Positions 1-64,000 of a stretch of DNA of 64,000 bases are shown here, piece by piece. The translations under genes were made by a program, and so were the position numbers. Position 1 is the stretch's first letter; each line of letters begins with the position of its first letter. Under the pieces are notes generated by a model. It was not told the origin of the DNA and ran no database searches. It saw nothing but the letters and a program-made list of their open reading frames with translations. Origin of the DNA: Glaciimonas sp. (GTDB lineage Bacteria; Pseudomonadota; Gammaproteobacteria; Burkholderiales; Burkholderiaceae_D); the NCBI GenBank assembly GCA_012927585.1, contig JABBOY010000003.1, positions 62,001-126,000 of the forward strand, written 5' to 3'.

Positions 1-1207
1 AAATCATGTTGCCGTCAATCCGTACCCCACCCTGCTCCACCATGCGTAGCGCTTCCGAACTGGAGGCGCACAGATTGGCCTGTTTCAGCAATTGGCCGAT
101 ACCCAATGGCGCACCGCCCAATGTGACTTCTGGAATCTCATCTGGAATACCGCCCTTCGAACGGCTGACGAAATCGGCCAGCGCATCAACCGCTGCCTGC
201 ACTGAATGGAAGCGCGTCACAATTTCCTGCGCCAGCGCCACCTTGACATCGCGCGGATTTTTGCCGACCGCAACAGCGTCCTTGAAGCCATCAATCTCCG
301 CCAGCGAGTGAAAAGACAGCAGTTCGTAATAGCGCCACATCATTACATCGGAAATGCGCATCACTTTGGCGAACATGGTGTTGGCCGGCTCGGTAATCCC
401 AATGTAGTTATTTTTCGACTTCGACATTTTTTCGATGCCGTCCAGTCCTTCCAGCAGCGGCATGGTCAAGATGCACTGCGGCTCCTGGCCGTAATCCTTT
501 TGCAGCTCACGGCCGACCAGCAAATTGAATTTTTGATCGGTGCCGCCGAGTTCGAGATCGCTTTTCAACGCCACCGAATCGTATCCTTGCATCAGCGGGT
601 ACAGAAACTCATGTACCGAAATTGGCGTGTTAGCCTTGAAGCGCTTGCTGAAATCGTCACGCTCCATCATCCGCGCCACCGTTGAATGCGAAGCCAGCTC
701 GATCATGCCGCGCGCGCCCAACGGATCGCACCATTCGGAGTTGTAGCGAATTTCGGTTCTGGCCGCATCCAGCACCAGGCTGGCCTGCTTGAAGTAGGTC
801 GTTGCATTGTGTTCGATCTGCTCTTTCGTCAAGGGCGGACGCGTCACGTTGCGGCCGGACGGGTCGCCGATCATCGAAGTGAAATCGCCGATCAAAAAAA
901 TCACGTTATGACCCAGATCCTGCAACTGGCGCATTTTGTTCAAAACCACGGTGTGGCCCAGATGCAGGTCAGGCGCGGTCGGGTCCAGCCCGAGTTTAAT
1001 GCGTAGTGGTATACCGCTACTTTCGGCGCGCGCCAGCTTCAGTGCGAATTCGGCTTCGATCAGCAATTCGTCGGCACCGCGCCGGGTAATGGCAAGCGCC
1101 TCTTGCACGCGATCCGATAATGGCAGCGGCAGCGCTGCGGTTAGCCCGGAAGAATTTGCAGGATCGGCTGGAGCTTGGTCTAGGGCAGGTTGGGATTGAG
1201 GATCCAT
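1..1207 (-). CDS. tyrS: Tyrosyl-tRNA synthetase, C-terminal end cut by window
   Basis: Charges tRNA-Tyr with tyrosine in the cytoplasm. About 402 codons are visible; the C-terminal end runs off the left edge of the window. The HIGH-type motif reads HLGH at residues 82-85 and the KMSKS motif is intact near residue 260, followed by an S4-like segment (GGVRIDG) close to the edge. The motif style is that of the bacterial TyrZ/TyrS2 type. The start is the ATG at 1207, giving a roughly 35-residue polar N-terminal lead before the conserved fold. It is transcribed divergently from the M23 peptidase gene, and the order tyrS / M23 / anmK is familiar in betaproteobacteria. Identification is secure. Confidence 0.95.
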   Translation of the reverse strand, partial: MDPQSQPALDQAPADPANSSGLTAALPLPLSDRVQEALAITRRGADELLIEAEFALKLARAESSGIPLRIKLGLDPTAPDLHLGHTVVLNKMRQLQDLGHNVIFLIGDFTSMIGDPSGRNVTRPPLTKEQIEHNATTYFKQASLVLDAARTEIRYNSEWCDPLGARGMIELASHSTVARMMERDDFSKRFKANTPISVHEFLYPLMQGYDSVALKSDLELGGTDQKFNLLVGRELQKDYGQEPQCILTMPLLEGLDGIEKMSKSKNNYIGITEPANTMFAKVMRISDVMMWRYYELLSFHSLAEIDGFKDAVAVGKNPRDVKVALAQEIVTRFHSVQAAVDALADFVSRSKGGIPDEIPEVTLGGAPLGIGQLLKQANLCASSSEALRMVEQGGVRIDGNMI

Positions 1208-1362
1208 GTTTAACTTTATTTCACTTTCAAAAGGCTAATGCGTGTTTACGACTTTGTTATAATTCTTGACTATTTCTCGCCTTGCCGCTAGTCAATACTA
1301 AAATAATAAGAAAACGTGCTTACTCTATATTCATACCGAACCGACAAATTCTAACTGAATGC

Positions 1363-2736
1363 ATGCAAACAAATCATAAATACCTGAGCCTAGGCTCCGC
1401 CAGCAAACTGTTGCTGGGCACATCGCGCAAGACCAGAATCATCTCGGCCAGCGGACTGTTTCTGGCAGCATGCGCCTTCGGCGCAATCGGTTTCGCGCCG
1501 CTAGCCCCGGACGCCGCCGACCTACCGGTCAGTCTGATCGAGCAGCAAATAACGCTGCCCAATCTGTCCCAGCAAATCGCGGCGCTCGAACAAGCCTCCC
1601 CCCAATATTACATGCGTGAAGAGAAAGTCCGTACCGGCGATACGCTGGCGACTTTACTGAACCGGCTCGGGATCAACGATGCGGCAGCGGAGAATTTCAT
1701 CAAGTCCGACAGCACCGCGCGCGGCGTGATGCAATTGCGCGCCGGCAAGAGCGTACAGGCGCAAACCAATGATGCCGGCAGCCTGCAGTGGTTGCGCACC
1801 ACTGTCGTCAGCAGTCGCGACAACCCGATCAAAAACATTGTGGTCGCGCGCAATGGCGATAATTTCAAGGCTGTGGAAGAAACCGCGGCCATTCAGATGC
1901 GCGTTGAAATGCGCTCCGGTTTGATCCATTCATCGCTCTTCGCCGCCACCGATAACGCCAACATCCCGGACCCGGTCGCGACCCAAATGGTCGACATGTT
2001 CTCGACCAATATCGACTTTAACTCCGACTTGCGCAAAGGCGACCGCTTCAACGTGGTCTATGAAACTTTCTGGCAAAACGGTGACTTCGTGCGTAGCGGC
2101 CGTGTGCTGGCAGGCGAATTCATCAACAATGGCAACACCTATCAATCGGTCTGGTTCCAGGAGCCGGGCAGCAAACAGGGTGGCGGTTATTACGGCTTTG
2201 ACGGCAAGTCGCTGAAAAAAGCTTTCCTTAAATCGCCGCTCGAATTCTCTCGCATCTCATCGGTCTTTTCGATGCGTAAACACCCGATTCTGGGCCTGTG
2301 GAAGCAGCACAAAGGGGTCGATTTCGCTGCGACGACCGGCACGCCGATCCGCGCCTCGGGCGATGGCGTGCTCGATTTCGCCGGCACCCAGGGTGGCTAT
2401 GGCAACTTCATCGTCATCAAGCACTGGAATAATTATTCCACCGCTTACGCCCACATGAGCCGCTTGGCACCCGGCATGCGCAAGGGCAGCAAGGTCAGCC
2501 AGGGCGACGTGATCGGTTATGTCGGCTCCACCGGTTGGGCGACCGGCCCGCATTTGCATTACGAGTTCCGCGTCAATAATGTTGCGGTCAATCCGATGTC
2601 GGTCAATATACCAAACGCGCAACCCATGACGACTGCCCAGTTGCGGCAATTCCGCAACATTACCGGCGACATCATGCATCGTTTCGCTTTGATGCAGCCG
2701 CAGAAAAACGCAGTCAAGCTGGCGTCCATCGATTGA
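1363..2736 (+). CDS. M23 family metallopeptidase (MepM/NlpD-like murein endopeptidase)
   Basis: Predicted zinc peptidase that cuts peptide cross-links of murein in the periplasm. The ATG at 1363 gives 457 residues; an in-frame TTG at 1282 would add 27 unconvincing residues, and no strong ribosome site marks either. A single membrane anchor lies at about residues 25-45. A LysM/OapA-like segment (VRTGDTLATLLNRLGI) follows near residue 85. The C-terminal LytM domain carries the zinc motifs HKGVDF (near 316) and HLHYEF (near 397), so it should be active. A TATAAT hexamer at 1258-1263 lies upstream but has no clear -35 partner. The next gene, anmK, also serves murein turnover and recycling. Confidence 0.9.
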   Translation: MQTNHKYLSLGSASKLLLGTSRKTRIISASGLFLAACAFGAIGFAPLAPDAADLPVSLIEQQITLPNLSQQIAALEQASPQYYMREEKVRTGDTLATLLNRLGINDAAAENFIKSDSTARGVMQLRAGKSVQAQTNDAGSLQWLRTTVVSSRDNPIKNIVVARNGDNFKAVEETAAIQMRVEMRSGLIHSSLFAATDNANIPDPVATQMVDMFSTNIDFNSDLRKGDRFNVVYETFWQNGDFVRSGRVLAGEFINNGNTYQSVWFQEPGSKQGGGYYGFDGKSLKKAFLKSPLEFSRISSVFSMRKHPILGLWKQHKGVDFAATTGTPIRASGDGVLDFAGTQGGYGNFIVIKHWNNYSTAYAHMSRLAPGMRKGSKVSQGDVIGYVGSTGWATGPHLHYEFRVNNVAVNPMSVNIPNAQPMTTAQLRQFRNITGDIMHRFALMQPQKNAVKLASID

Positions 2737-2796
2737 TGTGATGGTCTGGCAGGATTTAATTCCTGCCCCCTGGCGAGCGCGCGCAGCAACAACAAC

Positions 2797-2833
2797 AAAC
2801 GGTGACTGGATGGCTTCAGTCACCGTTTTTTTT
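2797..2833 (+). terminator. Rho-independent terminator after the M23 peptidase gene
   Basis: A perfect 12-bp stem (AAACGGTGACTG paired with CAGTCACCGTTT) with an 8-nt loop is followed by a run of T. It lies 60 bp after the peptidase stop codon and just before anmK, so anmK probably has its own promoter or depends on readthrough. Confidence 0.9.
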
Positions 2834-2863
2834 AAACATTAGCCCAAAATAAATTAGCCCAAA

Positions 2864-4015
2864 ATGCGCCCTCCTCTTATGCCCAAACCCTGCTCCGACA
2901 GCCTCACCATCGGCCTCATGTCCGGCACCAGCCTGGACGGCGTGGACGGCGTGCTTGCCACTTGCGCGGCCGATGGCGGCGGCCGGATGCGTTCCATCGC
3001 TCATGCTTACATCCCGTTTCCAGATGCGCTGCGGGCCGAATTGCTGGCTCTGCAAACTGCCGGTCACAACGAAATCGAGCGCGAAGCACAAAGCGCCAAT
3101 GCACTGGCGCACCAATACGCAGCCTGCGTAAAACAGTTGCTGGGTAGTGCAGGCAATAGCGCCAGCCAGATTAGTGCCATCGGCGCGCATGGGCAGACCA
3201 TTCGGCATCGGCCCGACCTGGGGTTTACCCGCCAGACGAACAATCCGGCCCTGCTGGCGGAATTGACTGGAATCGACGTGATCGCCGATTTTCGCAGCCG
3301 CGACATCGCTGCCGGCGGCCAGGGCGCACCGCTGGTGCCTGCCTTCCATCAAGCCGCATTCGGTCAGATCGGCGAGACCCGGGTGGTGGCCAATATCGGC
3401 GGCATCAGCAACATCAGCATACTTGACGGCAACGGCGATGACGCTACCGGCTTCGATACCGGCCCCGGCAATATGCTGCTCGATGCTTGGATCGGGCGTC
3501 ACCGGGGCTTGCCTTACGACGCTGACGGCGCCTGGGCCGCCAGCGGCACTGTGATCGCGGCGCTGCTGCAAACGCTGCTGCAGGAACCGTATTTGGCAGC
3601 GCCGCCGCCCAAGAGCACCGGGCGCGACCTATTCCACCTGGCATGGCTGGATGACAAACTGCACGCTTTCCCCGCTGTAGCTGCGGCAGACGTGCAAGCG
3701 ACCCTGACCGCATTTACCGCCCGCACCCTGGCCGACGCCATTGCGCGCACTGCCGGCGACGCTGCAGCGGTCTATTTATGCGGCGGCGGCGCTTACAATG
3801 CGCAACTGACGGCGCAGTTGACAGCAGCCCTGCAGGCACAAGGGCAAAACGCGCGCGTGCTATCAACCGACGCGCTTGGCGTAGCGCCCAACCAAGTGGA
3901 AGCGCTGGCATTCGCATGGCTGGCACAGCGCTTCCTGCAACGCCAACCCGGCAACCGGCCGGCCGCCACCGGCGCGCGGGGCTTGCGTGTACTGGGCGCA
4001 CTTTATCCACGCTGA
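2864..4015 (+). CDS. anmK: Anhydro-N-acetylmuramic acid kinase
   Basis: Phosphorylates and opens 1,6-anhydro-MurNAc released from murein, feeding MurNAc-6-P into cell-wall recycling; cytoplasmic. The 383-residue length is normal for the family. The phosphate-binding motif [12 protein letters not shown] lies at residues 17-28 and the [13 protein letters not shown] segment in the middle of the protein is typical. Two starts are possible, ATG 2864 and ATG 2879; neither has a good ribosome site, and the first is kept. It follows the M23 peptidase after a strong terminator. Confidence 0.93.
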
Positions 4016-8645: not shown

Positions 8646-10993
8646 AACCGAGCATGAACAAAGGCGCCGGTCAGCGCATCGCGCTAGTCGACGGCATCGA
8701 AAAAGTGAGCGGCCGCGCCAAGTACACGGCCGATCTGTTTACACCGGATGCGCTGGCCGGACGCATTTTCCGCAGCCCTTACGCGCACGCCGAAATCATC
8801 CGTATCGATACCTCGGAAGCGTTGAAACTGCCGGGAGTGGTTGCAGTGATCACGGGCGACGCTTGCGATAAGGCATACGGCATCTTGCCGGTGGCACAAA
8901 ATGAATTTCCGCTGGCGCGCGAGCGGATTCGGTATTTCGGCGAGCCGGTGGCGGCCGTTGCCGCGGTTGACGATGCGACCGCAGCGGCCGCTCTGAAACT
9001 GATTCGTCTCGAAGTGCGCGAACTACCGGTGTATACCGATGCTGCCAGCGCCCGGGCACCGGATGCGGTGCTGCTGCACGGCGACAAGAAAGGCAATCTG
9101 GAGCGCGAGGTACACAATGAATTCGGCGACACCGAAGCCGGTTTTGCCGCAGCCGACCTGGTGCGCGAAGAGAGCTTCGAATGCGCGGAAGTCACGCACG
9201 CGCACATGGAGCCGCACGCTGCGATGGCCAGCTTTGACGTCGAACGCAATCAATTGACGATGCATACGGTCAGCCAGGTGCCGTACTACGTGCATCTGAC
9301 GCTGGCGCGCTGCCTCGACCTCGATACCTCGCGCATCCGCGTCATCAAGCCGTTCGTTGGCGGCGGCTTTGGCGCTCGTACCGAAACCCTCAATTTCGAA
9401 GTTATCTGCGCGCTGCTGGCACGCGCCGCCGGCGGCACCGTGCGTCTAAAGCTGTCGCGCGAAGAAACTTTCCTGACCCATCGCGGCCGTCCGCAAAGCC
9501 AGATTCGCCTCAAGCTGGGGATGAAGCAGGATGGCCGCCTCACCGCCTGCCATCTGGAAATGGTGATGCGCGGCGGTGCTTATGGCGGCTATGGCATCGT
9601 CACCATTCTGTATGCCGGCGCGCTGTTGAACGGTCTGTATAACCTGCCGGCGGTCAAGTACGACGGCTACCGGGTATACAGCAACACGCCGCCATGCGGC
9701 GCGATGCGCGGCCACGGTTCCGTGAATACCCGCTTCGCCTTCGAGGCGTTAATGGACTCAATGGCCAAGGAACTCGGGCTTGATCCGCTCACTGTGCGCC
9801 GGCGCAACCTGCTGGCGGCGCCGACCGACACCCTCAACGGCCTGAAAGTGATTTCATACGGCTTGCCGGAATGCATCGACCGGGTTGAACAAGCCAGCCG
9901 CTGGCGCGAGCGGATCGACAAGATGCCGCCGGGACGCGGTCTCGGCATCGCCTGTTCGCACTTCGTCAGCGGCTCGGCCAAGCCAGTGCACTGGACTGGC
10001 GAGCCGCATGCGACAGTGATCCTGAAGCTTGATTTCGATGCCGGCATCACGATCCTGACCGGCGCTTCCGACATCGGCCAGGGCTCCTCGACAATCCTGA
10101 CGCAAGCGGTGGTCGAGGTGCTCGGTGTCGATTACGGCCGGGTGCGCGTGATTGCCAATGATTCTGCGATCACGCCCAAGGATAACGGTTCGTACTCATC
10201 ACGCGTAACCTTCATGGTCGGCAATGCGGCGATCCAGGCCGCCGAAAACCTGAAAAAAATCCTGCTTGAGGCTGCCGCCCGCCGCTTGCAAGTCACGCCG
10301 GAACAGGTCGATTGCCTGGGCGAAATGTATGCGGTATTCAACCAGCCTGAGCGCACTGTCGGGTTCAACGACGTGGTCGCAGAAGCATTGATCAATACCG
10401 GCACGCTCACCGTCAAGGGCACTTACACTTGCCCGATCGAGTTCCAGGGCGGCAAGCAAAAAGGCGGCGCGGTCGGCTCGACAATGGCGTTCTCGTATGC
10501 GGCTTCGGTGGTCGAAGTCAGCGTCGATAGCGAGCTGGGCACAATCACCGTCGAAAAAGTCTGGACCGCGCTCGATTGCGGTTTTGCGATCAATCCGCTA
10601 TCGGTCGAAGGCCAAGTGCAGGGCGCGGTCTGGATGGGCATGGGACAGGCTTTATCGGAAGAAACCAGCTACGCAAAAGACGGCAAGCACAGCGCCGCCA
10701 ACTTCCTCGATTACCGGGTGCCAACCATCGTTGAATCACCCGAGATTGAAGTGCATATCGTCGAAAGCATCGACCCGAACGGCCCGTTCGGCGCCAAGGA
10801 AGCCAGCGAAGGACCGCTGGCCGGAATACCGGCGGCGGTTGCGGCCGCGGTGCAGCATGCGACCGGCACCAAGATCACCCGCTTGCCGATGACGCCGAAC
10901 CTGGTGCTGGAAGCATTGAGCGGCCGCAAGCGCCCCGCCGCCACGCGCGCGCCACAGCCTGCTGCCGCCGTCACTGAAAAGGAACTTGTCTGA
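8642..10993 (+). CDS. hcrA: 4-Hydroxybenzoyl-CoA reductase alpha subunit (molybdopterin)
   Basis: Catalytic subunit (783 aa) holding the molybdenum-cytosine dinucleotide cofactor; cytoplasmic. It has the usual N-terminal hammerhead domain (about 20-130), the cofactor-binding glycine run GGGFGARTE near residue 240, and the C-terminal loop [10 protein letters not shown], where the conserved active-site glutamate of xanthine-oxidase-family enzymes lies. Full length for the family. It overlaps hcrC by four bases and shares one base with hcrB, so the three subunits are translationally coupled. Confidence 0.92.
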
Positions 10994-12006
10994 TGGAACT
11001 GCTCTCTCAATTCAAGCTGTTGCGGCCGAGTTCGGTCGCCGAGGCCATCGCAGCGCGCGCCGGCAAAAGCGGCGCCCGCTTCCTGGCCGGCGGCACCGAC
11101 CTGCTGACTAACATGCGGCACGGCCTGGTACAGCCCGAAATTCTGATTGACCTCGGCGGCGTCGCCGAGCTGCGCGGCATTTCGCACGATGCGCACGATG
11201 CGCACGATGGTCAGGTGCTACGCATCGGTGCCGGCACTACGCTCCAACAACTGACGACCGACCCGTTGCTGCGCGATACCCCGGCGCTGATTGAAGCGGC
11301 GCTGGCGATTGCCGGCCCGACCCATCGCGCGGTCGGTACCGTCGGCGGCAACCTGTGCCTCGATACCCGCTGCCAGTTCTACAACCAGAGCGACAGCTGG
11401 CGCGAAGCCAATAATTTTTGCATGAAAATTGCCGGCGACACTTGCCACGTCGCGCCCAAATCGGATCGCTGTTACGCCGCCTACAGCGGCGATCTGGCGC
11501 CAGCGTTAATGGTGCTTGGCGCGGTGGCCGAGATCGCCGGCCCATCCGGCGTGCGCCACAGCCCGCTGGCTGAAATCTATGCCGACGACGGCATCGCCTA
11601 CCTGACACTGGCACCGGAAGAAATGCTGGTTGCGGTGCGCGTGCCGCTGGTTGCCAACCGGCGCGGCCTACGCGGGTTACGCTCGGGCTACCAGAAAATC
11701 CGTGTGCGTGGCGCGCTCGACTTCCCGCTGGCCGGGGTCGCGGTTGCATTACGCTGTGAAAATAATCAGCTGCACGATTTGCGCGTCGCCGTCACCGGCG
11801 CCGATTCGCGCCCGCTGCTGATCAACGGCCTCGACGCGTTGTGCGGCATCGCGCTCAATGATGCGCTGGCGCAACTCGACAAGCTGCTGCGCAAGCAGGT
11901 CGGCCCGATGGAAACCTCCATCACGCCGGCGGCCTACCGCCGCCGTGTGCTGCCGGTGCTGGCGCGGCGCGTGATCGGCCGGCTGATCGCAGCCGATGCC
12001 GAGTAA
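10993..12006 (+). CDS. hcrB: 4-Hydroxybenzoyl-CoA reductase beta subunit (FAD, extra [4Fe-4S])
   Basis: FAD subunit (337 aa) with FLAGGTDLL near residue 30 and GPTHRAVGTVGGNL at 108-121. Its decisive feature is an insertion with four cysteines at 127, 143, 151 and 160. The spacings 16, 8 and 9 equal those I recall for the extra [4Fe-4S] cluster of the Thauera enzyme, which separates 4-hydroxybenzoyl-CoA reductase from ordinary xanthine-dehydrogenase-like enzymes. A 9-bp unit (GCACGATGC-type) is repeated about three times in tandem at 11186-11209 and encodes His-Asp-Ala repeats in a surface loop. Operon: hcrC-hcrA-hcrB-xdhC. Confidence 0.93.
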   Translation: MELLSQFKLLRPSSVAEAIAARAGKSGARFLAGGTDLLTNMRHGLVQPEILIDLGGVAELRGISHDAHDAHDGQVLRIGAGTTLQQLTTDPLLRDTPALIEAALAIAGPTHRAVGTVGGNLCLDTRCQFYNQSDSWREANNFCMKIAGDTCHVAPKSDRCYAAYSGDLAPALMVLGAVAEIAGPSGVRHSPLAEIYADDGIAYLTLAPEEMLVAVRVPLVANRRGLRGLRSGYQKIRVRGALDFPLAGVAVALRCENNQLHDLRVAVTGADSRPLLINGLDALCGIALNDALAQLDKLLRKQVGPMETSITPAAYRRRVLPVLARRVIGRLIAADAE

Positions 12007-51467: not shown

Positions 51468-52157
51468 ATGCATGACATCGTTCAAGACTATTACGGTCGC
51501 CAGTTGCAGCATTCCGGCGACCTCAAGACCAGCGCCTGCTGCGACATCAGCCAGATGCCAGCCTGGCTCAAACCCTTGCTGGCGCGCATACACCCGGAAG
51601 TGCTGGCGCGCTATTACGGTTGCGGCCTGGTCTGCCCGCCATTGCTGGAAGACTGCCGGGTGCTCGATCTCGGTTGCGGCTCTGGACGCGATGTCTACAC
51701 GCTGGCGCAATTGGTCGGCCCGAACGGCGAGGTGGTTGGCGTCGATATGACCGACGAGCAACTCGCTGTCGCAGAGAAACACCGAGCGTTCCATACGGAT
51801 GCCTTCGGTTATGACAATGTGCGCTTCCTGAATCATTTCGCTCTGAAGAACTGCGACATCAAGCCGCAGGTGATCATTGGCGACAACCAGCAGGGCATCA
51901 AGACCGTGGCCGGCAATCCGGGCGCCATCGGCTATGTCTCGATCGGCAGCGCCGAATTCGAAGCAGGACAAGGTACGCCGATCAAGCTGCTGCCGTTGGC
52001 AGGACTGGCCCAGGCGCGACGCATCGCCAATTACGCAGCGTTTTTCTGGATGAAGGAGCGGGTCGGAAAACTGATCGAGTTCGGACGCTGCCGGCCGCTG
52101 TTCGAAACGCCGGAGAATCCACTGACGGCCGCGTATGTTTCAGGAATGCGCGGCTAA
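51468..52157 (+). pseudogene. In-frame chimera of ArsM, PstS and PstB pieces
   Basis: Open frame of 229 codons made of three parts. Residues 1-120 match arsenite methyltransferase ArsM: TSACCDIS, HPEVLARYYGCG, the SAM motif VLDLGCGSGRDVY and VGVDMTDEQL. Residues about 128-183 match the C-terminal part of a phosphate-binding PstS protein (GDNQQGIKTVAGNPGAIGYV ... GTPIKLLPL). Residues about 184-229 match the end of the phosphate ATPase PstB (YAAFFWM ... GKLIEFG ... LFETPENPLTAAYVSG). A frame kept through two junctions could be translated, but it lacks the rest of the methyltransferase. It points to loss of a pst operon next to arsM. Confidence 0.8.
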
Positions 52158-52757: not shown

Positions 52758-52793
52758 TCCGGGGCAGCAAAAATTCAATTTCGAGGAACCTTG

Positions 52794-54059
52794 ATGTTGC
52801 ACCGTTATTCGCGCCTATGGCTGCCAGTCTTGATTCTGGCTGTATTTTTGGGTGGCTGCGAGCCTGATGCCAAAGCGCCAAAACCCTCTACTCCCAAGCC
52901 AACGGCAGCATCCCCGGTCGAGGCGGAAACTGCGCGTTTTCTGGAAAAACACTGGGCCAGGCCGTTGGCGCCGCAGGGTAAACTTCCGGCTGCTGCGCAA
53001 GGCATCTCGCTGGCGCCGCAAAGCTGCGCCGGTTGCCACGCAAGTCAGTTCAAGGATTGGAGCAAAAGCCGGCATAGTCGCGCCATGGGACCCGGCATCT
53101 TGGGGCAGTTGCAGGAGATGCCGGCTCACGCGCGCGACGATCATCAAAGCTGCATACGCTGCCATGCCCCGCTGGCGGAACAAGCCGACAGCCTGGTAGC
53201 CGCACTCGAGAAACAGGCAAACAAACAAGCCGGTGGCAAGCCCGAGATTCGGCCGCTGCATCAGCAAGGGTTGGTTTGCGCGGCCTGCCATGTTCGCAAC
53301 AATGAATGGCATGGGCCGCCGCGCCGCAATGGCAGCCAGCCAGGCGGCGACCTGAGCGCTTACCCTCACGCCGGCTGGAAAGCCAATCGCGCCTTTGAAA
53401 GTTCGCAGTTCTGTGCCGCCTGTCACCAGTTCAAGGGTGACGAATACGCGCTCAACGGCAAGCTGCTGGAGAACACCTACAAAGAGTGGCAGGACAGCCG
53501 CTATGCGCGCCAGGGTGTGTCCTGCCAGTCTTGCCACATGCCGGATAGGCGTCACTTGTGGCGCGGCATCCACGATCCCGAGATGGTGAAAAAAGGCGTC
53601 GGGGTACGTGCCGGCGCGGCGTCCATCGCGAACGGTCAGGTCGCAGCGCGCCTTAGCGTGGCCAATACCGGCGTGGGTCATTATTTTCCGACCTATGTCA
53701 CACCCAAGATCCTGATTCGCGGTTTCCAGCAAGACGCGTCCGGCCACAAGCTCGATGGCACGGAACAACAATTCGTGATCGGCCGCCAAGTGACGCTGGA
53801 CCTCAGCACAGAAATCGCCGATACGCGCATCGCACCGGATGCCGAGGCGACTTTCGATTACCGCATGCCGCGACACGTCCGCGCAACTTCCCTGATGTGG
53901 CAGGCAGAAGTCCAGCCTGATGCGTTTTACCTGGAATTCTATGTGTCATTGTTGCAAGGCGAGATGAAAGCCGGCAGTAGGCAGTTGATTGCACAAGCGC
54001 GCGATAACGCCGGCGCATCGCCCTATATTGTTTTTTCCAGGCGCTTGGCCTTGCCCTGA
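52794..54059 (+). CDS. Five-heme c-type cytochrome lipoprotein
   Basis: Exported multiheme cytochrome (421 aa). The N-terminal lipobox LGGC suggests a lipid-anchored protein, followed by a Pro/Lys/Ala-rich linker. Five CxxCH motifs are visible: CAGCH, CIRCH, CAACH, CAACH and CQSCH. The C-terminal half is a beta-rich domain with NTGVGHYFPT, a segment I associate with multiheme cytochrome c families. Start ATG 52794 follows GAGGA. It likely moves electrons at the cell envelope; redox partners are unknown. The next gene encodes a mono-heme protein with NPC repeats. Confidence 0.88.
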   Translation: MLHRYSRLWLPVLILAVFLGGCEPDAKAPKPSTPKPTAASPVEAETARFLEKHWARPLAPQGKLPAAAQGISLAPQSCAGCHASQFKDWSKSRHSRAMGPGILGQLQEMPAHARDDHQSCIRCHAPLAEQADSLVAALEKQANKQAGGKPEIRPLHQQGLVCAACHVRNNEWHGPPRRNGSQPGGDLSAYPHAGWKANRAFESSQFCAACHQFKGDEYALNGKLLENTYKEWQDSRYARQGVSCQSCHMPDRRHLWRGIHDPEMVKKGVGVRAGAASIANGQVAARLSVANTGVGHYFPTYVTPKILIRGFQQDASGHKLDGTEQQFVIGRQVTLDLSTEIADTRIAPDAEATFDYRMPRHVRATSLMWQAEVQPDAFYLEFYVSLLQGEMKAGSRQLIAQARDNAGASPYIVFSRRLALP

Positions 54060-54454: not shown

Positions 54455-55066
54455 ATGAACCCATACGCGAAACCCCGAAACACACGCATTGCCGCAATGA
54501 TTTCTAGCGGCCTCCTGGCCGCCGCTTTCGGGGGAGCAGCACTTGCCGCCAATCCCTGCGCACCGAAAAATCCTTGTGCGGCCAAAGCCGCCAACCCTTG
54601 TGCGGCCAAAAATCCCTGCGCCGCTGGTGCCAAGATTGACCCGAAGCAAGTCCTGCGCCCGGCTGGCTACAAGCCTTACAAGGGGAGCAAGGCCGCCCTG
54701 ATCGCCGAAGGCGAGCGCCTCGCCAAGGATGCCAAGCTGAGCACCAATGGCGCGGCTTGCATGACGTGTCATCAGGGCAATAACGCCTATCAGGCAACTT
54801 TCGCCAAGCCTTACCCGCACGCCGTTCAGATGGCAACAGACATTGGCATAAAAAAGATCAACCTCGATGAAATGATTCAATTGTGCATGCTCAAGCCGAT
54901 GGCCGCCAAGCCGCTGCCCTGGGATTCCAAGGAACTTGCATCGCTGGCCGCCTACTTTGGGGAGGTGCAAAAAGGATACAAGCCGGGCGCAGCGATGGCC
55001 AATCCGGGCGCGGCCAAAAACCCGTGTGCGGCCAAGGCTAATCCATGCGCAGCCAAGAAGATGTAA
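54455..55066 (+). CDS. Exported mono-heme cytochrome c with NPCAAK-type repeats
   Basis: A 203-aa protein with a signal peptide (about 1-31, ending GAALA), then four NPC units at residues 33, 39, 47 and 53 (NPCAPK, NPCAAK). A small cytochrome c domain follows with heme motif CMTCH at 102-106, PYPHAVQM, and Met candidates for the axial ligand at 140-149. Two further NPCAAK units stand at 189 and 196, plus a mutated NPGAAK. The repeats supply six thiols that could hold metal or form disulfides. ATG 54455 follows TTGGAG. I know no named family with this architecture. A repeat-only relative is encoded 1 kb downstream. Confidence 0.85.
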   Translation: MNPYAKPRNTRIAAMISSGLLAAAFGGAALAANPCAPKNPCAAKAANPCAAKNPCAAGAKIDPKQVLRPAGYKPYKGSKAALIAEGERLAKDAKLSTNGAACMTCHQGNNAYQATFAKPYPHAVQMATDIGIKKINLDEMIQLCMLKPMAAKPLPWDSKELASLAAYFGEVQKGYKPGAAMANPGAAKNPCAAKANPCAAKKM

Positions 55067-55149
55067 AGCCAGGCCGCCCCGGCGCTAAGCCAGCCGGGGC
55101 GAACACCTGTGGCGCGCAGCCGGACCCGTCATTTCGAGAGTCTCAAACC

Positions 55150-55878
55150 ATGAACATGAATCCAGATCTGAAAACCTTGCCGCGCACATTGCGCGCATCG
55201 ATGCTGGCTGCCGGCAAGGAAATCCGCGAGTGCTACCGGGTCATGGAGAAGGCCGATCTGAATATCGTCGGCGAGGTATTGCGCGGACAAGGAGATTTCG
55301 TCGAGATGGAGCACTACCCGCCGGACGACGTTTTCGATACAGAAACCTGCGGCCAGTACTATTACCACGCCCATCGGGGCAGTGAAGTGGAGCACGGGCA
55401 TTTTCACACTTTCCTGCGCGCAGGCGGCATGCCGGCAGGCAGCGCGCCGATTGATTACCCGCCGGCAAGCGAAGCCTGGCCGAGCGGTGACGATGCCATC
55501 TGCCACCTGATCGCCATTTCGATGGATGCATGGGGCTACCCAAGCGGGATTTTCTGCACCAACCGCTGGGTCACGGATGAAGCCTGGTATCCGGCGCAGC
55601 AGGTGACCGCCATGCTAGACCATTTCGCCATCGATCATGCCTTCCCCAACTGGTGCGTGAATCGTTGGCTGAGCGCCATGTTGCGGCTGTATCGCCCGCA
55701 TATCGAAGCGCTGATCCGGCAGCGCGACACGGTGCTGTCCGAGTGGCAAACGCAACATCCAGATACCGACATATTCGAGGACAGGGCGCTGGATATAACC
55801 TGCACTCTGCCGATTTCGGTCGAGCAACTGATTACGGAGCTTGAGGGTCTGGATGCACCGCTTGGTTGTCCAGTGTAA
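55150..55878 (+). CDS. Uncharacterised His-rich protein (DUF6969-like)
   Basis: Soluble 242-aa protein without signal peptide. A dense histidine patch, YYYHAHRGSEVEHGHFHTF (His73, 75, 82, 84, 86), is followed by CHLIAISMDAWGYP (His119) and IFCTNRWVTDEAW, which suggests a metal site. I think this matches a family named DUF6969 but cannot check. ATG 55150 (or 55156) is chosen; an in-frame start at 55045 would overlap the previous gene and add an unlike N-terminus. It lies between the two NPCAAK-repeat genes on the same strand, so a joint task is plausible. Confidence 0.7.
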   Translation: MNMNPDLKTLPRTLRASMLAAGKEIRECYRVMEKADLNIVGEVLRGQGDFVEMEHYPPDDVFDTETCGQYYYHAHRGSEVEHGHFHTFLRAGGMPAGSAPIDYPPASEAWPSGDDAICHLIAISMDAWGYPSGIFCTNRWVTDEAWYPAQQVTAMLDHFAIDHAFPNWCVNRWLSAMLRLYRPHIEALIRQRDTVLSEWQTQHPDTDIFEDRALDITCTLPISVEQLITELEGLDAPLGCPV

Positions 55879-55992
55879 GAAATTGCCAATCTGCTCCGAC
55901 TGAAGCAACAGGAGCAAAAAATGGGCAACCATTTCTTCCCATCGCTGGCCTGGTTGCTGCCGCATTGCCGGCAAGACGAGGTTGGCACCACG

Positions 55993-56014
55993 GGCGCGAA
56001 TGATTGTTCGCGCC
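55993..56014. repeat. Palindrome GGCGCGAATGATTGTTCGCGCC
   Basis: Perfect 8-bp arms with a 6-nt loop between the His-rich gene and the repeat-only gene. No T-run follows, so it is a weak terminator at best; more likely an extragenic palindrome related to those at 54232-54291. Confidence 0.6.
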
Positions 56015-56042
56015 GATTCTTACTTGATTGAAAGGACTTACC

Positions 56043-56306
56043 ATGCAAACCCTATCCCGCAAGGCATATTCCCTCGGACTGGCTGCTCTGAGCGCTGTTG
56101 CGTTCTCACTGCCAGTTGCCGCAGCTGACGTTGCTGCCAACCCCTGTGCGGCAAAATCCATGAATCCGTGCGCTGCGAAGTCCATGAATCCGTGCGCCCC
56201 GAAGGCCAAGCACAAGAGCAAGGAAAAGATGGCCAATCCTTGCGCTGCCAAAGCAGCCAATCCTTGCGCTGCCAAACCGGCCAATCCCTGCGCGGCCAAG
56301 AAGTAA
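56043..56306 (+). CDS. Small exported NPCAAK octapeptide-repeat protein
   Basis: An 87-aa protein: signal peptide about 1-28, then six NPC units at residues 33, 41, 49, 65, 73 and 81. All sit on one 8-residue register that continues through the Lys-rich linker (KAKHKSKEKM, position 57 skipped). Consensus NPCAAKxx. With no other domain, it is effectively a periplasmic array of cysteines. ATG 56043 follows AAAGGA. Possible roles: metal (Cu, Hg, As, Zn) buffering, a scaffold, or a precursor peptide. It shares the repeat with the mono-heme protein upstream. Confidence 0.8.
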   Translation: MQTLSRKAYSLGLAALSAVAFSLPVAAADVAANPCAAKSMNPCAAKSMNPCAPKAKHKSKEKMANPCAAKAANPCAAKPANPCAAKK

Positions 56307-61381: not shown

Positions 61382-61590
61382 CAACAATGTTGGGCTTCGC
61401 AAGCTCAGCGCAAACCTACTAATTGCGGTATGTATTTATAAATGCGCATTATATATATGCGTAAATCAGCATATTTCTACCTATACTCCAGCATATTTCT
61501 TGAATGTGCAGGTTTGGATAACACTGGTTTTTGCACAATTCGCAGCCCAACATTGTGCGCAGAATGTCGGGCTTTGCGCAAACCTACTTC
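61382..61590. repeat. Nested TGTTGGGCTTCGC-type repeats, one of them inverted
   Basis: ACAATGTTGGGCTTCGCAAGCTCAGCGCAAACCTAC at 61382-61419; an inverted partial copy at 61508-61556 (AGGTTTGG ... GCCCAACATTGTG); and a third direct partial copy at 61563-61590 (AATGTCGGGCTTTGCGCAAACCTAC) that runs into the end of the DUF3179 gene. Copy 5 of the dispersed palindromic repeat sits between them. Confidence 0.65.
61419..61489 (+). repeat. Dispersed CGCAT/ATGCG palindromic repeat, copy 5 (left box lost)
   Basis: Core CGCAT-TATATAT-ATGCG at 61445-61461; ATACTCC at 61483 is 26 bp after ATGCG, as in the other copies. The left ATACT box is absent where a TGTTGGGC-type repeat adjoins. Confidence 0.7.
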
Positions 61591-62516
61591 GCCTGAAATA
61601 CTTCCGTATCGCGATGGAAAGCGTACCAGGCGAACCAGAAAGCGATGACCGTTGGAATCTCTTTGCCCTGCGCGTCGAATGCCGCCCCCGTCCGATGCTC
61701 GGGATCGAAGCGCACAGTGAGCGCTTTTCCGCCCAGCGTGTCCGTCATCTTGCCGTCCTTGATTTTGGCCAGTTCTACGAATGGATAGGCTTTGAACTTG
61801 CCGCTTGCATCAAGGCCAATCACCAGTTCCTTGGGGTGATAGCGCAGGCTCCGCCCAGCCACCGGAAACATGATGGTTTGATCCTGGGTGTAACCCGCGT
61901 AGGGGTCGCGGGTGTAGCCGCGGGTAAAACCGGTGTCGGTCGACAGCATCTGCGTGTCCGGGTGGCGCTTCTTCCAGTCAGCCCAACTGGTGTGGGCGAG
62001 TGCGATAGTCGTGAGCTTGGTGCCCTTGAGCGATCCGCTCACCGCCTGGGCCAGGATCTGCGACCAGAGTGATTGCGTTTGCCGATCGTAGACCAGAACA
62101 TCGCTGTTGTAGAGCAACCCCGACACGCCGAAACTAAGCGGTTTCCCGCCCGCTTCCGAGACATAGGCGATACCGGTGCCGCACAGCGGGCAGAAGGTGA
62201 CGGCGATGTGCTCGGCGCCGAACGTGTCGTTGACGATTTCGTGCCAGTTCAGGATGCGCACCGGGTAAGCCTTGGCGATGCCGTTGCGCATCACGCCCAG
62301 CACCCGGTCATCGCCTTGCAGGAAGCGCGCGTCGCTCGCCCGCACGAATTGGGGCCGGTCGATCGCCGGGATGCCATCCTTGGATGGCCCGCCCGACTCG
62401 ATTTGTGCTGCCGGCACCAGTGCGCCGGTCAAGTCGAAGCCGTTCCTGGTTTGCGCGGCCGCAACCGTGGCAAGCAGCAATGCACTCGCCAGGAAAATCG
62501 TTCTTAGCTGTTTCAC
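61584..62516 (-). CDS. DUF3179 domain-containing exported protein
   Basis: A 310-aa protein with signal peptide (about 1-21, ending VAA). The DUF3179 core includes VNDTFGAEHIAVTFCPLCGTG with a CxxC pair, LLYNSDVLVYDRQTQSLWSQ and TGFTRGYTRDPYAGY. Function unknown; the CPLC pair may bind a metal or a sulfur species. The start is GTG 62516, overlapping the YeeE/YedE stop by four bases, so the two are coupled. Confidence 0.88.
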   Translation of the reverse strand: MKQLRTIFLASALLLATVAAAQTRNGFDLTGALVPAAQIESGGPSKDGIPAIDRPQFVRASDARFLQGDDRVLGVMRNGIAKAYPVRILNWHEIVNDTFGAEHIAVTFCPLCGTGIAYVSEAGGKPLSFGVSGLLYNSDVLVYDRQTQSLWSQILAQAVSGSLKGTKLTTIALAHTSWADWKKRHPDTQMLSTDTGFTRGYTRDPYAGYTQDQTIMFPVAGRSLRYHPKELVIGLDASGKFKAYPFVELAKIKDGKMTDTLGGKALTVRFDPEHRTGAAFDAQGKEIPTVIAFWFAWYAFHRDTEVFQAK

Positions 62517-63811
62517 GGCCTATCCTCGGATGGTTGAGAAGATTCAACCTTAGTCGGATCGCGGTGCGATTTCTTACAACTACAGGGTGCGTGACGACCG
62601 GCCGGCTGCCCCTGGTTCGGCAGCCGGAACCACGGCCTGAGCTTGATGCCGATCCATGTGCCGGGCAGTGCTGCAGCGATCCACAGCCAACCGTGCAGAC
62701 TGGTCGATGCCACGCCCGAGAAAAACGCACCCACGTTGCAGCCGAAGGCGATGCGTGCGCCGTAGCCCATCAACAGGCCGCCGAGGATGGCGGCAACCAG
62801 GGAGCGCAGCGGAATGTGAAGCCGCGGGGCGAAGCGGCCAGCCAGCGCCGCGGCGCACAGCGCACCCACAAGCAGCCCGATGTCCATCACCGAGGTAATG
62901 TCGTCCAGGACGCCGCCTTGCAATGCCGCCTGCTGGAAGTCGCCTTGCCAGAAAGCGCTTGATTCCGGGTTCCATCCCAGCAGCATGGCGATCTTGGCGC
63001 CCCACAAGGTGAAGGCCCAGGTGATGCTCCAGGGATGGCCGGCAATCAATAGCGTCATGAAATTGAGACCGGCCAGCGCCAAGCCGCCTGCCGGCAGGGG
63101 CCAGGGTCCGCTCAGGATGATGCGCCGGCCACCTGCGGCCCCGGCATTCGCAGTATTTTTCAGCACCGGTTTGCCCCAGCGTTTCAGACCCAGCCAAAGA
63201 ACCAGCAGAAACGCAATCTGCAGCGCGACGCCCAAGGGCCAGCCGAATACTGCGCCGAGCGCGATCGGCGGCCACGAAGGCAGCGCCTGCCACCAGCCCA
63301 TATCCAGGCTGGCCCAGAACGAGCCGGCGACAAAGGCGGCAAGGGTGGCCAGCATGCGCGTACTGCCGCCGCCCAGGGTAAATAAGGTGCCTGAGCCGCA
63401 ACCATTGCCAAGCTGCATGCCGATGCCGAACAGGAAAGCGCCGGCCGCCACCTGCCAGCCGACCGGCGCAATGGCTCCGGCCACCTCGCGTCCGAATACG
63501 GAACCGGCCGCCAGCACCGGCGCGAATAGGAGGGTCGCTGCGCCGAGCATGACGAGCTGCGCCTGCACCCCGCGGGTGTCGCGCTCGGTGATCAGCCGGC
63601 GGTAGGCACCGGTGAAGCCGAACGCGGCGTGGTAGAGCGTAATGCCGAGCGCCGCGCCGAGCAGAAGCAGCACCGCCATGCGCCGGTCGTCGCGCGCCAG
63701 CAAGGCTGCCAGGCCCGCCAGCAACAGCAGCCCGACGGCCAGTGGGCGGTGCTGCCATGACTTCCACAGGGGTGCGGCCGGAGCCTTCAGCGCATCATTT
63801 GCCAGTGGCAT
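62513..63811 (-). CDS. YeeE/YedE (TsuA-like) sulfur-compound transporter
   Basis: Integral membrane protein (432 aa) with about ten helices in two similar halves. The conserved cysteine motifs GNGCGSGT and FGCNVGAF are those of thiosulfate importers of this family; selenium-linked YedE proteins share them. The C-terminus is a soluble Cys-rich tail (HAPCSCKK). ATG 63811 overlaps the DUF302 gene end by 17 bases. Coupling to DUF3179 and DUF302 genes suggests a sulfur-related operon. Confidence 0.88.
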   Translation of the reverse strand: MPLANDALKAPAAPLWKSWQHRPLAVGLLLLAGLAALLARDDRRMAVLLLLGAALGITLYHAAFGFTGAYRRLITERDTRGVQAQLVMLGAATLLFAPVLAAGSVFGREVAGAIAPVGWQVAAGAFLFGIGMQLGNGCGSGTLFTLGGGSTRMLATLAAFVAGSFWASLDMGWWQALPSWPPIALGAVFGWPLGVALQIAFLLVLWLGLKRWGKPVLKNTANAGAAGGRRIILSGPWPLPAGGLALAGLNFMTLLIAGHPWSITWAFTLWGAKIAMLLGWNPESSAFWQGDFQQAALQGGVLDDITSVMDIGLLVGALCAAALAGRFAPRLHIPLRSLVAAILGGLLMGYGARIAFGCNVGAFFSGVASTSLHGWLWIAAALPGTWIGIKLRPWFRLPNQGQPAGRHAPCSCKKSHRDPTKVESSQPSEDRP

Positions 63812-64000
63812 CGGCGACGATCTTTGCAAAAATCGGATCGAGTTCACTGGCCACAGCGTCAAGCTTGCGGCTGCCGTAAGGCGCGAACGTCGCGCTCGGG
63901 GTGCGGTAGCTGACGCTTGCCGTGCCGTTCTTGTTTTCCGTCACATACAGTCGCAACGGCGCCTCGATGCCGGCTGGCAGACTCGCTTCCAGCATGCGCA
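63795..64000 (-). CDS. DUF302-family protein, N-terminus beyond window
   Basis: C-terminal 68 codons of a protein that resembles the DUF302 family (LPLRLYVTENKNGTASVSYRTP pattern and the alanine-rich end). The start lies beyond the right edge. First visible gene of the DUF302-YedE-DUF3179 operon. Function unknown. Confidence 0.65.
   Translation of the reverse strand, partial: RMLEASLPAGIEAPLRLYVTENKNGTASVSYRTPSATFAPYGSRKLDAVASELDPIFAKIVADATGK

Follow-up and report, generated by a model that had tools for sequence, protein, structure and literature searches.

Analysis of a 64,000-nucleotide stretch of Glaciimonas sp. DNA (contig JABBOY010000003.1, positions 62,001 to 126,000; the whole of this stretch is referred to as the window) revealed that two genes for proteins with repeated NPC cysteine motifs, together with the DUF6969 gene lying between them, form one conserved cassette. 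What the analysis establishes is that these genes are linked and conserved, that the arrays are fused to heme domains and that array type covaries with DUF6969. In the original prediction, a heme protein with NPC repeats and a protein made of repeats alone had been described as a design without a name; this pairing proved to be conserved, and our literature search found no paper describing the association of Cys-repeat proteins with DUF6969, nor any paper naming DUF6969.

The NPC cassette and its linkage to DUF6969

The cassette consists of the following features, all on the forward strand:

54455..55066, + strand: NPC-array cytochrome (203 amino acids), with a signal-peptide-like N-terminus, four NPC units, a SoxA/TsdA-type cytochrome c domain and two further NPC units
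54551..54628, + strand: first NPC array of the cytochrome, four units
54683..54988, + strand: cytochrome c core, with the heme motif CMTCH and a Cys144 that is invariant across aligned homologues
55001..55060, + strand: second array of the cytochrome, one decayed NPG unit plus two NPC units
55150..55878, + strand: DUF6969 protein (242 amino acids), with six invariant His; predicted cytoplasmic partner or maturase
56043..56306, + strand: small NPC-repeat protein, exported-looking (87 amino acids), its six units all on a register of 8 residues in which one slot is empty

Both repeat proteins were found where they had been predicted, each with six NPC units, and the cytochrome carries four of them before its heme domain (residues 33, 39, 47 and 53; spacing 6, 8, 6) and two after it (residues 189 and 196; spacing 7), the decayed NPG unit being at residue 183. 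In the small protein the units start at residues 33, 41, 49, 65, 73 and 81 (spacing 8, 8, 16, 8, 8), and the empty slot is occupied by a His/Lys-rich spacer. The strict 8-residue register that had been claimed describes the small protein, apart from this slot, but not the homologues read, in which the NPC unit was kept and the exact spacing was not. At the DNA level 6 of 6 and 5 of 6 repeat units were distinct in the two proteins, and this variation in codons suggests that the motif has been preserved as protein rather than freshly duplicated. The proteins are conserved beyond chance: the small one had 94 relatives at a threshold of E 0.01, and the cytochrome had 992 at E 0.001, of which the best 120 were listed.

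The titles of records with NPC arrays name Alpha-, Beta- and Gammaproteobacteria. A match to Cornifin/SPRR (PF02389) was a low-complexity one and fell below the curated cut-off (32.2 vs 34.8 bits). Export of the cytochrome and the small protein is suggested by N-termini that look signal-peptide-like by eye. The SoxA-TsdA_cyt-c domain was matched at E 0.001 in all 26 aligned cytochromes, and the window protein has a single CxxCH in its 203 residues. Its Cys144, invariant in the aligned homologues, may correspond to Cys123 of TsdA (numbering of PMC4423706) and is a candidate axial ligand of the heme.

The middle gene matched the DUF6969 profile (PF22308) at 280.2 bits against a curated cut-off of 27, and its product had 4,342 relatives. 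The original prediction had merely hinted at it as a His-rich neighbour; it turned out to be the partner most tightly linked to the Cys-repeat genes. Its N-terminus is not signal-peptide-like (by eye). By profile search DUF6969 was present in 26 of 274 genomes of the class and 20 of 398 of the phylum, the window's own genome being counted in both. Conservation was taken from 28 members found by profile search, as pattern-chosen loci would bias it; Y72, H73, H75, E81, H82, G83, H84, F85 and H86 were invariant in all 28, as were F88, H119, G129, N138, W140, V141, W173 and L188. In the structure model (predicted local distance difference test, pLDDT, 93.2; predicted template modelling score 0.91), H73/H75, H82/H84/H86 and H119 alternate on three strands and would thus share one face of a sheet. 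No clear match of this model to any solved PDB structure was found.

Linkage was quantified across 106 DUF6969 loci, namely 80 from a scan for the pattern EHGHFHxF (best 80 of 563), 25 from the profile search of class genomes and the window; some of these are near-copies or lie on one contig (e.g. L085/L216). Open reading frames (ORFs) that combine a repeated Cys tripeptide with a membrane-export-like start were counted by their distance from DUF6969: the 105 kb lying no more than 500 bp away held 60 of them (57 per 100 kb), and the 796 kb at 3–9 kb held 6 (0.75 per 100 kb), a density about 76-fold higher beside the gene. The filter also caught a few unrelated Cys tripeptides. An ORF with at least three NPC units lay within 3.5 kb in 61 of the 80 scan loci; in 44 of these the nearest such ORF lay upstream of DUF6969 on its own strand, in 2 it lay downstream and in 15 it was on the opposite strand. 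A looser classifier assigned a Cys-repeat ORF to 81 of the 106 loci (NPC 72, PCGL 7, DPCAA 1, CAA/CCG 1), and the motif variants seen near DUF6969 were NPCAAK, GGNPCAPSAR, NPCSLDED, SPCGLD, KKPCAAK, CAAEGC and CCGCCG.

Repeat type shifts with DUF6969 clade. On a DUF6969 tree of 124 rows, all 8 PCGL rows fell in one deep clade of 12, the remaining rows of which comprised three without an assigned repeat and one NPC row of the NPCSLDED form; outside this clade NPC was found in 82 of 112 rows. One DUF6969 clade (L119, L127, L129 and L134; three titled Rhodospirillales or Rhodospirillaceae and one Alphaproteobacteria) had no Cys-repeat ORF within 3.5 kb. Five loci (L046, L050, L051, L052 and L054) have the look of a compact sulfur operon: YeeE/YedE and DUF6969 flank a peptide that combines PCGL repeats with a DHTRH anchor, and a rhodanese comes next.

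Heme-domain fusions and array type with and without DUF6969

The heme domain is replaceable, as fusions of the arrays to two kinds without relation to each other were found, one SoxA/TsdA-type and one P460-type. Heme-bearing NPC ORFs were present at 54 loci, 40 of them SoxA/TsdA-type, 13 P460-like and one (L096) recognized by motif. The P460 profile (PF16694) scored above its cut-off in two of the five scanned (L096 and L132) and below it in the other three, and a Cys-array relative at L117 gave no Pfam match at E 0.001. The P460-type fusions belong to Alphaproteobacteria.

Array type was compared within the genus of G334, a genome whose DUF6969 row groups with Marinobacter. The cytochrome was present in 42 of 90 genomes and DUF6969 in 23, 20 of which had both. 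Forty of 44 cytochrome rows were readable; the four left out for want of a readable core (G679, G714b, G660 and G716) all come from DUF6969-less genomes. With DUF6969, all 21 readable rows (20 genomes) carried an NPC array of 5–20 units; without it, all 19 carried an acidic GEAEGE-type array with no Cys outside the core, or one in a single row. The rows are related and the acidic type requires two changes on the cytochrome tree, so the 40 rows are not 40 independent events. Same-family cytochromes with GEAEGE-type arrays replacing the cysteines were also seen at L208 and L210, the latter with a small acidic repeat protein nearby.

A broader cytochrome tree held 71 rows and leaves out 5 of 76 genomes, which had no row (G110, G714, G679, G660 and G716). 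NPC was present in 28 of 28 rows with DUF6969, and the 43 rows without it divided into 23 NPC, 19 acidic and one with no array; 19 of these 23 belong to family f198 (17 weaker relatives plus G514 and G529). In the tree rows, DUF6969 is accompanied by Cys arrays, which for their part can do without it. The gene and a strong cytochrome match occurred together in 4 of the 274 class genomes (26 and 7 with each; one-sided Fisher p 0.002) and 6 of the 398 phylum genomes (20 and 13; p 1e-5), values uncorrected for phylogeny and for the window's own genome.

Proposed function and alternative explanations

We propose, at somewhat below an even chance of being right, that DUF6969 modifies or loads the NPC cysteines before export and that the arrays form a periplasmic soft-metal or metalloid buffer beside the heme domain. 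DUF6969 would be a cytoplasmic, His-ligated metalloenzyme acting on the NPC cysteines ahead of Sec export; the exported arrays would buffer copper, arsenic or mercury in the periplasm, and the heme would exchange electrons with whatever the arrays hold. The inferred parts of this proposal are an enzymatic DUF6969 acting on the cysteines, export of the arrays, metal binding by them and electron exchange through the heme. A wider formulation is possible and is put forward tentatively: DUF6969 may found an MNIO-independent class of peptide-Cys-modifying metalloenzymes, with NPC, PCGL and CAA arrays as its products, a widespread family of exported, modified and heme-wired Cys polymers for holding soft metals or arsenic; such an electron-wired buffer would have arisen on two or more occasions, with different heme domains.

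The proposal draws on the gene linkage, the covariation of repeat type by clade and within one genus, the two kinds of heme fusion, the invariant His of DUF6969, the arsenic-type and MNIO genes at some loci and the likeness to bufferin precursors. Several observations weigh against it. The strongest counter-evidence, directed at an obligate maturase, is the occurrence of NPC cytochromes in DUF6969-less genomes, which indicates that DUF6969 is not obligatory for NPC arrays. Three of the seven strong cytochrome matches among the class genomes carry NPC without DUF6969 (G110, G193 and G061). Among the phylum genomes 7 of 13 strong matches lack DUF6969, and four of those carry NPC (G291, G550, G514 and G529, the last two in genomes 67 and 57 % complete), the others being acidic (G399 and G654) or without an array (G349). 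In family f198, for which no DUF6969 was listed, there were 34 weaker relatives; 17 of them were read, and all 17 carry NPC. The split within the genus of G334 rests on the two tree changes noted above. By the classifier, 25 of the 106 DUF6969 loci had no Cys-repeat ORF within 3.5 kb, several of them at contig ends; at least two, L037 and L042, were missed by the filter and do contain Cys-rich, exported-looking ORFs. Lastly, sulfur-type neighbours (YeeE/YedE at 24 and rhodanese at 10 of the 106 loci) fit another reading.

The alternative that survives best, although we regard it as unlikely, is that the arrays are unmodified, metallothionein-like thiol buffers and DUF6969 is their metallochaperone, escort or sensor rather than a modifying enzyme. 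The persistence of NPC arrays without DUF6969 favours it, as does the lack of a clear fold match to any enzyme, and the six invariant His could merely bind metal. However, the cytochrome tree shows two appearances of Cys-free arrays, neither of them with DUF6969, and NPC is present in all 28 DUF6969 rows, and DUF6969 has no signal-peptide-like N-terminus whereas the arrays look exported (by eye).

It is doubtful that the arrays are instead sulfur carriers to whose cysteines the SoxA/TsdA-type heme domain conjugates thiosulfate or sulfane sulfur. SoxAX conjugates sulfur onto SoxY, and the sulfur-type neighbours would suit such a role. However, the P460-type fusions are not known for any thiosulfate chemistry, the acidic-array cytochromes retain the domain without array Cys, and the recurring arsenic genes would be left unexplained. 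That the arrays are flexible low-complexity tethers that slip and expand, linked to DUF6969 through a shared ancestor operon, is improbable: they were modelled with pLDDT under 50, acidic repeats substitute for them in some lineages and one unit has decayed to NPG, but NPC was kept despite varied codons, in records from three proteobacterial classes and on two unrelated heme domains, and repeat type tracks DUF6969 clade.

Through this work DUF6969, with its thousands of members, gains a specific and testable partner in the Cys-repeat proteins, and the swap to acidic arrays in DUF6969-less relatives provides a ready-made comparison. If DUF6969 does modify them, it would offer a new handle for the discovery of metal-handling peptides in environmental Proteobacteria.

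Neighbouring genes and known systems

The following genes flank the cassette in the window:

51468..52157, + strand: broken chimera, an arsenic-gene remnant, with an ArsM N-terminal part followed by phosphate-transport-like pieces
52791..54059, + strand: five-heme lipoprotein-like cytochrome, recurring beside NPC cytochromes with and without DUF6969
61584..62516, − strand: DUF3179-type protein; its cluster occurs at 16 of the 106 loci, counting the window (PF11376 scanned for the L135 member only)
62516..63877, − strand: YeeE/YedE-type sulfur transporter (PF04143, 218 bits); its cluster occurs at 24 of the 106 loci, counting the window

The five-heme neighbour of the original prediction is present and recurs at other loci, and its mercury neighbours are true MerA and MerP genes. 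Its arsenic neighbours stand in part: arsenic genes recur elsewhere, but the window's own is the chimera, which matched NF040538 at 75.8 bits (cut-off 500) over residues 1–122 and a PstB-like profile over residues 179–228, also below cut-off, and which looks like a recombination remnant. Clusters of neighbours in the available flanks rest on single linkage of ORFs from a simple caller, and one or two scanned members supplied each name, except that CcdA, the ArsM-like cluster 23 and the ArsS-like cluster 33 were named by eye; the counts of these neighbours are uncorrected for the background at random loci. Besides those already given, clusters were found for ECF sigma factors (22), FGE-like proteins (13), DUF302 (12), the five-heme cytochrome (7), CcdA-like proteins (7) and thioredoxin (7). 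An FGE/SUMF1-like gene lay directly upstream of DUF6969 in Alphaproteobacteria at L088, L093, L095, L109, L115, L121 and L132; FGE-type enzymes act on peptidyl cysteine. Arsenosugar-type, ArsM-like, ArsS-like or LMWP clusters occurred at 15 of the 106 loci, and their scanned representatives scored just above cut-off for TIGR04283 (184 vs 182) and below it for TIGR04282 and arsC. L213, from a genome without a DUF6969 match, lines up ArsS (467 bits vs cut-off 300), ArsM (355 vs 263), a small NPC protein and two cytochromes, one with an NPC array and one with five hemes.

Metallothioneins carry dense CxC/CxxC clusters, unlike the small NPC protein with its cysteines 8, 8, 16, 8 and 8 residues apart. 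The window cytochrome shares the SoxA-TsdA cytochrome c domain of the Cys-ligated SoxA/TsdA cytochromes, but unlike TsdA it has one heme motif between Cys arrays and no second cytochrome domain. The heme domain of the alphaproteobacterial fusions resembles cytochrome P460 (PF16694), from which these proteins differ in placing long NPC arrays before the domain. The five-heme neighbour matched NF040886 (ExtKL) at 59.6 bits (curated cut-off 250) and the rhodanese of the PCGL class NF040901 (ExtH) at 96.4 bits (curated cut-off 200); scores so far below the cut-offs point only to a resemblance to Ext-type selenite/tellurite-reduction proteins.

An MNIO gene was not found in the window by tblastn with the L164 MNIO query (E 1e-5). 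By the same method 7 of 126 DUF6969 loci had one; the distance was about 1 kb or less at L035 (region 9217–11255) and L106 (region 891–3026), and 2–9 kb at L072, L074, L079, L084 and L224. The closest precedent for the cassette is the MNIO bufferin/captophorin system, a mark of which is a copper-binding heterocycle formed from Cys. Bufferin precursors have Sec signals and repeated Cys motifs and are modified before export (PMC12452194; PMC13097082), and their systems include cytochrome c, FGE and MerC fusions and sigma-factor neighbours (PMC12452194). Repeated Cys motifs are likewise found in both window proteins, as six NPC units each. The likeness covers exported-looking Cys-motif repeat proteins with an adjoining candidate metalloenzyme gene, fusions to cytochrome c, and FGE-like, sigma-factor and mercury neighbours (PMC12452194; PMC13097082). 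The differences are that DUF6969 replaces MNIO (DUF692) and that NPC, PCGL or CAA motifs replace EGKCG. By this analogy the cassette would repeat the MNIO design with a different enzyme candidate and, if DUF6969 does modify the repeats, would show that the bufferin problem has been solved by a second enzyme.
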